The notes beneath the pieces are model-generated. The model saw only the letters and a program-made list of their open reading frames with translations. It did not search any database and was not told where the DNA came from. Of a stretch of DNA of 64,000 nucleotides, positions 4,058 through 4,903 are shown in pieces; positions within the stretch are counted from its first letter, which is position 1; each line of letters begins with the position of its first letter. The position numbers were made by a program, and so were the translations under genes. This DNA comes from Methanomicrobia archaeon (lineage in GTDB: Archaea > Halobacteriota > Bog-38 > Methanoflorentales > Methanoflorentaceae): NCBI GenBank assembly GCA_015660915.1, contig JACTTZ010000001.1, forward strand, positions 100,865-164,864, written 5' to 3'.

Positions 4058-4140
4058 GCGGAGGTAGCCAAGTGGTCAACGGCGGTGGGCTCAAGATCCA
4101 CTCTCACAGGAGTTCGCGGGTTCGAATCCCTCCCTCCGCA
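4058..4140 (+). tRNA. tRNA-Leu, anticodon CAA
   Basis: Acceptor strands 4058-4064 (gcggagg) and 4133-4139 (cctccgc) pair perfectly, with discriminator A at 4140 as expected for Leu. The anticodon stem 4085-4089/4097-4101 closes the loop ctcaaga, so the anticodon is CAA at 4092-4094, reading UUG codons. A long variable arm follows (class II tRNA), and the T-loop contains ttcgaat. The T-stem has one non-pairing position as read here. The CCA end is not encoded and no intron is present. Confidence 0.96.
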
Positions 4141-4211: not shown

Positions 4212-4267
4212 TCGAAGTAATTGCTTGCGCAAAGCGTCGTAGGCTGCAAGCGGGGTGGTCAACGAGG

Positions 4268-4275
4268 TATATCTT
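4268..4275 (+). promoter_or_regulatory. TATA box for the C/D box sRNA
   Basis: tatatctt lies so that a start site about 26 bp downstream of its centre falls at about 4298, within a few bases of the predicted 5' end of the C/D box RNA at 4301. No other gene begins in the next 160 bp, so this promoter seems dedicated to the sRNA. Confidence 0.6.
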
Positions 4276-4300
4276 AATACTGAGAAGCTCAAATGCACTT

Positions 4301-4369
4301 GTGCCGATGATGTACATTAACTCCCGAGCGCTAAAGACGCAATGATGATCCCTATGAGTTCTGAGGCAC
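4301..4369 (+). ncRNA. C/D box small RNA (2'-O-methylation guide), predicted
   Basis: Archaeal C/D box sRNAs carry box C (RTGATGA), D', C' and D (CTGA), bind L7Ae, Nop5 and fibrillarin, and direct 2'-O-methylation. All elements are visible: terminal stem gtgcc (4301-4305) with ggcac (4365-4369); box C atgatgt (4307-4313, last base off consensus); D'-like ccga (4324-4327); perfect C' atgatga (4342-4348); perfect D ctga (4361-4364). The C'-D spacer is exactly 12 nt (tccctatgagtt), the archaeal norm; the C-D' spacer is 10 nt. By the D+5 rule the first guide marks the C of a CAT within aactcataggga, which resembles a tRNA-Met anticodon loop (C34). D' is weak. Confidence 0.75.
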
Positions 4370-4425
4370 CGAAGAGAAACGGTCGATTGATAAAGCTGCT
4401 TTTTTATCCTTCGTGATTAGCAGAG

Positions 4426-4465: not shown

Positions 4466-4903
4466 ATGAAAAAGAAGATTAAAGGCATCGCCCGTGACGC
4501 ATTGAAGTTTGTGCTTGAAGTGAGTGCATCCTCCCACCCCAAGGAATTCGCTGGGATGTTATATGAAACTGACCAAATCATAACCGATGTGGACGTTCCT
4601 ATTACTCAGTCTTCAAATGTGAGCGCGGTTATGAATCTGTTCATGTTACCTGTTAACACACATATTGTAGGATCGGTGCACAGTCATCCGTCAGGGGAGC
4701 TTCAGCCGTCGGATGCAGATATTCATATGTTTATGCAAAATGGTGATTATCATATCATTGTCGGCTATCCTTATAAACTCACGAGCTGGGCTTGTTACGA
4801 TAGAGTCGGCAACATTAGAAAACTCGATGTGCTCGACGTTGAAATTGAAGAGAGCGCGGTATATAGAGACATAAAAGAAACATTCGGCGGCGAAAATGAC
4901 TAG
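4466..4903 (+). CDS. JAMM/MPN (JAB1-type) metalloprotease domain protein
   Basis: A 145 aa single-domain JAB1/MPN protein. The full zinc motif is present: Glu in KEFAGML near residue 28, then HSHPSGELQPSDAD near residue 73, fitting HxH-x7-S-x2-D, so it should be an active isopeptidase or peptidase. Archaeal relatives act on ubiquitin-like SAMP conjugates or on other C-terminally linked peptides; which substrate applies here is not evident. The last 8 bp overlap the FAD synthetase gene, implying coupled translation. The ATG at 4466 is chosen from the promoter position. Confidence 0.88.
   Translation: MKKKIKGIARDALKFVLEVSASSHPKEFAGMLYETDQIITDVDVPITQSSNVSAVMNLFMLPVNTHIVGSVHSHPSGELQPSDADIHMFMQNGDYHIIVGYPYKLTSWACYDRVGNIRKLDVLDVEIEESAVYRDIKETFGGEND

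Follow-up and report, generated by a model that had tools for sequence, protein, structure and literature searches.

The locus lies in a 64,000-nt stretch of archaeal DNA (hereafter the window), where a complete box C/D small RNA (sRNA) gene is set between a tRNA-Leu(CAA) gene and a gene for a JAMM-domain protein (Table 1). An earlier note on this DNA had described such a gene as a 69-nt segment with ordered C, D', C' and D boxes, a 5-bp terminal stem and a 12-nt spacer between C' and D, and we were able to read every one of these features in the sequence: GTGCC-G-ATGATGT-acattaactc-CCGA-gcgctaaagacgca-ATGATGA-tccctatgagtt-CTGA-GGCAC. The order of the boxes and the spacers of approximately 12 nt are those of archaeal box C/D sRNAs (consensus RUGAUGA for box C, CUGA for boxes D' and D), with deviations in the D' spacer (10 nt) and in box D', in which the U is replaced by C in the window copy (CCGA; the copy in G003 has CTGA).

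Table 1. Features of the sRNA gene and its surroundings, in window coordinates.
Feature	Position	Strand	Remarks
tRNA-Leu(CAA)	4058..4140	+	conserved upstream neighbour
BRE/TATA-like element gaggtatatcttaata	4264..4280	+	about 22-37 nt upstream of 5' stem; putative promoter
Box C/D sRNA, probable sR-tMet-type guide RNA	4301..4369	+	69 nt, stem to stem
5' arm of terminal stem, GTGCC	4301..4305	+	pairs with 4365-4369
Box C, ATGATGT	4307..4313	+	100% identity, six genomes
D' spacer, acattaactc	4314..4323	+	variable
Box D', CCGA	4324..4327	+	sequence
D'-C' linker hairpin GCG-ctaaaga-CGC	4328..4340	+	
Box C', ATGATGA	4342..4348	+	sequence
D guide TCCCTATGAGTT	4349..4360	+	12 nt; 100% identity in six genomes
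Box D, CTGA	4361..4364	+	
3' arm of terminal stem, GGCAC	4365..4369	+	
T-run tttttt	4401..4406	+	probable archaeal U-rich terminator; ~30 nt downstream of sRNA
JAMM-domain protein gene (label from the earlier note)	4466..4903	+	conserved downstream neighbour

The terminal stem has the geometry of a K-turn, with a 3-nt bulge (GAU) and G-A pairs available, and the GCG/CGC hairpin held by the 14-nt D'-C' linker would allow the internal C'/D' motif to form a second K-turn with the 3-nt bulge aat. To judge from the sequence, K-turns with 3-nt bulges can thus form at both ends of the sRNA. A scan for the combination of C, D', C' and D boxes with a terminal stem returned this element as the single match in the window and no match when the window was resampled 60 times with a first-order Markov model. 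The folding energy of the sRNA is not unusual (z = 0.59), as is common for C/D RNAs.

The sRNA was present in six of the seven genomes of the genus, in each case flanked by tRNA-Leu(CAA) on one side and the JAMM gene on the other. The named relatives with this locus are metagenome-assembled genomes from peat, including Methanomicrobia from SPRUCE and Euryarchaeota from the Stordalen fen and bog, among them isolate bog_38. The GTDB genus Bog-38 corresponds to Methanoflorens (PMC10805028), and by its close relatives the host appears to be a methanogen of the Bog-38/Methanoflorens lineage. Mean pairwise identity among the six genomes was 100% for the C box, the D guide, the D box and the 3' stem, 95% for C', and approximately 67% (66.7%) for the D' spacer, and the spacer between the sRNA and the JAMM gene was not conserved. 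Pairing was retained in 96.7% of cells of the terminal stem over the six sequences and in 95% of those of the stems overall; in the linker hairpin, the three outer pairs are invariant and five pairs are possible in four relatives. We observed no covariation to speak of in the stems of these six sequences. The TATA-like element, which the earlier note had rightly placed upstream of the gene, showed 91% mean pairwise identity in the same six genomes, compared to 60-66% in most of the neighbouring spacer. A scan with bacterial promoter and terminator models, which are not applicable to archaea, found nothing. The best-supported reading of these sequence data is that the sRNA gene is independently transcribed from its own conserved promoter-like element.

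The earlier note had proposed that the D guide pairs with the exact 12-mer aactcataggga and directs methylation of C34 of tRNA-Met by the D+5 rule, and it had staked this reading on the presence of a tRNA or rRNA in the genome with at least 9 bp of complementarity. The predicted site and its register held up, and the 12-mer did not. Across the seven genomes, the exact 12-mer occurs only in the sRNA itself, and matches with one mismatch lie, as judged by eye, outside tRNA and rRNA genes. The full 10-mer CTCATAGGGA has no match in tRNA, and the SSU and LSU rRNAs of the genus offer the guide at most seven contiguous Watson-Crick pairs. Instead, we found an 11-bp target on the intron-containing precursor of elongator tRNA-Met in the same genome (G000) and also in that of a second species (G001). 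Here, the D guide forms 10 Watson-Crick pairs and one G:U pair with 5'-GACUCAUA^GGG, in a duplex that spans eight bases of the anticodon arm (G30 to A37) and the first three bases of the intron (GGG), and C34 faces the nucleotide five positions upstream of box D (N+5 register). The use of intron bases together with C34 of (pre-)tRNA-Met at N+5 is what characterizes guides of the sR-tMet type. After splicing, only 8 bp are left between guide and tRNA-Met, and the calculated duplex energy is -17.6 kcal/mol for the precursor versus -8.7 for the mature tRNA, -8.3 for initiator tRNA-Met and -11.1 for tRNA-Ile2. The mature initiator and Ile2 tRNAs, which also carry the CAU anticodon, offer only the CUCAUA loop (six Watson-Crick and two G:U pairs). 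When the guide was shuffled, 2 out of 2000 versions matched pre-tRNA-Met equally well, and 17 out of 2000 did so for some pre-tRNA. These observations suggest that the D guide very probably directs modification of the first base of the anticodon in elongator tRNA-Met before splicing. For the D' guide, we found no conserved target in tRNA or rRNA (the best rRNA match scores 6.6). Since the D' spacer is variable and has no convincing target, the RNA appears to act as a single guide, with the D' guide probably idle.

The elongator tRNA-Met gene was located by searching for CTCATAGGG with its sequence context, at G000:C4:45377-45507 on the minus strand (L203), with the same gene in G001 (L204). 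It contains a 31-nt intron in the D loop and a 26-nt intron at position 37/38, each with a bulge-helix-bulge (BHB) motif in which two 3-nt bulges flank a central helix of 4 bp. The intron at 37/38 begins with GGG and has a canonical, textbook BHB. Removal of both introns yields a 74-nt tRNA that ARAGORN calls tRNA-Met(CAU). The presence of two introns explains why routine tRNA scans missed the gene, and the second intron, which had not been anticipated in the D loop, also hid it from searches for an intron-bearing tRNA-Met that relied on T-loop or A-box spacing. This second intron is non-canonical, lies after position 17, and has a BHB built on the palindromic pair CUAG/CUAG; for euryarchaeal intron-bearing tRNA genes, a single canonical intron has been described (PMC4090602).

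Two Rfam families matched the sRNA over its full length under permissive settings, both below their cut-offs: sR41 (39.2 bits, E = 5.6e-8, cut-off 54) and sR-tMet (RF02163; 27.7 bits, E = 0.0027, cut-off 50), for which the congeners score 26-29 bits. The D guide core CCCUAUGAG is common to the window sRNA and to both families. By its sequence, the sRNA would thus resemble sR-tMet in function without being a member by the RF02163 threshold. Another family of the same phylum has an RNA with this guide immediately 5' of the same JAMM gene in two genomes (L065 and L073). L065 (G028) has the same guide core and scores 59.4 bits for sR41, which is above the cut-off, and the score in G081 is 46.5 bits; at the other 23 JAMM loci outside the genus, there was no such sRNA match. 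Only a few bases separate the end of the sR41-like sRNA (L065 1430-1485, L073 1429-1485) from the start codon of the JAMM gene, so that a shared transcript of sRNA and mRNA is possible at these two loci.

Guide RNAs of this type have been described before in halophilic and thermophilic archaea. The haloarchaeal representative is sR-tMet of Haloferax volcanii (Joardar et al., 2011, as cited in PMC4033218), with which the window sRNA shares the order of the boxes, the terminal stem, the guide core, a hairpin between D' and C', a short D' spacer and, as far as the pairing predicts methylation here, the target C34 of an intron-bearing elongator pre-tRNA-Met. It differs from sR-tMet in its D'-C' linker (14 nt, versus the 19-21 nt stated for Halobacteria in PMC2584109) and in its box D (CTGA, versus CCGA in the haloarchaeal consensus). 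The boxes and guide core are also those of sR41 of Pyrococcus and Thermococcus (RF01126), which, in contrast, has a short D'-C' linker without a hairpin. Pyrococcus sR41 was tentatively assigned to 23S G1950, with sR49 named as the tRNA-Met guide (PMC2584109), and sR41 has also been labelled an orphan in the literature. According to the same study, Cm34 of intron-containing tRNA-Met in archaea is directed by a stand-alone C/D sRNA, which must act before splicing because part of its pairing involves the intron; its D'-C' region measures 19-21 in Halobacteria versus 4-10 in other orders (PMC2584109). The sequence of the window locus fits this rule, with a linker of intermediate length. A further comparison is offered by the box C/D guide in the intron of tRNA-Trp (Rfam sR3-like, also present in G000), which directs Cm34 on an intron-containing pre-tRNA; that guide is a double guide inside the intron of its own target, whereas the window sRNA is a separate gene. 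In G000, the 95-nt intron of tRNA-Trp (L047 504-674, minus strand, G000:C9) matches Rfam sR3 with 50.4 bits (cut-off 41), in agreement with the C/D guide for Cm34/Um39 known from this intron.

We consider it highly probable that the element is an archaeal box C/D guide of the sR-tMet type, which is transcribed on its own and directs 2'-O-methylation of C34 in elongator pre-tRNA-Met. In the mechanism that we propose, L7Ae would bind the terminal C/D K-turn and the internal C'/D' K-turn closed by the small hairpin, after which Nop5 and fibrillarin would join the complex. The D guide UCCCUAUGAGUU would pair with the exon-intron junction of the precursor and bring C34 into the N+5 register relative to box D, where fibrillarin would methylate its 2'-OH. 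Because the intron contributes three of the paired target bases and the mature tRNA is left with just eight pairs, methylation should precede splicing. Pairing with the intron bases would further keep the guide away from the initiator and Ile2 CAU tRNAs, which otherwise share the loop. In this way, a tRNA intron would supply part of the guide target and set elongator tRNA-Met apart, and a wobble-C34 guide for pre-tRNA-Met that is known in haloarchaea and has been proposed for Pyrococcus would extend to methanogens of the Bog-38/Methanoflorens lineage.

If the element is a genuine box C/D sRNA, its main target might still lie elsewhere, for example at C6 of tRNA-Arg(UCG) or at an rRNA site. The 5' end of tRNA-Arg(UCG), GGCUCGUAGGG, pairs with the guide over 11 positions at -16.8 kcal/mol, nearly equal to pre-tRNA-Met, yet this duplex contains three G:U pairs, position 6 is absent from the 2'-O-methylated tRNA positions of Haloferax (32, 34, 39 and 56; PMC2584109), and the guide core is the one that Rfam holds for sR-tMet. 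Given also the short rRNA matches, we regard a main target other than pre-tRNA-Met as improbable.

Still less probable, and to our mind very unlikely, is that the C/D gene is degenerate or silent, or that the element serves as a conserved regulatory 5' leader of the JAMM gene and only mimics a C/D sRNA. The few bases between the element and the JAMM start in L065 and L073 would permit co-transcription, whereas within the genus conservation is highest in the guide and the boxes and is absent from the spacer towards the JAMM gene, and an 11-bp target in the correct register exists in the same genome. Single boxes are short and common, so their chance assembly in an intergenic region also deserves mention; it has next to no probability in light of the empty randomised windows and the E-value of the sR41 match, and the conservation in six genomes already refutes it. 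We therefore retain the reading of the element as a C34 guide for elongator pre-tRNA-Met.

In two distant families, the guide locus neighbours the same JAMM gene; the D'-C' linker is short in one family and holds a small hairpin in the other. This shared neighbourhood connects sR41 with sR-tMet by synteny. We tentatively speculate, at somewhat worse than even chances, that the Pyrococcus-type sR41 and the haloarchaeal sR-tMet are one ancient orthologous guide for C34 of pre-tRNA-Met, that the haloarchaeal linker hairpin arose stepwise via a Methanoflorens-like intermediate, and that the tRNA-Met intron has been retained for the portion of the target that it supplies.

The tRNA set of G000 (L008-L047) includes at least a dozen intron-bearing tRNA genes, which is more than the ~8% reported for Euryarchaeota (PMC4090602). 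ARAGORN mislabels several of these as Stop, SeC, Phe-aaa and Ser-aga; by eye, we read the mislabelled tRNAs as Gln-UUG, Arg-UCG, Ala-CGC and Lys-CUU. At two further sites (L045 and L046; G000:C9:200812-200868 and G000:C10:68214-68270), sub-threshold tRNA matches have a disrupted 5' half and may be tRNA remnants or integration scars.
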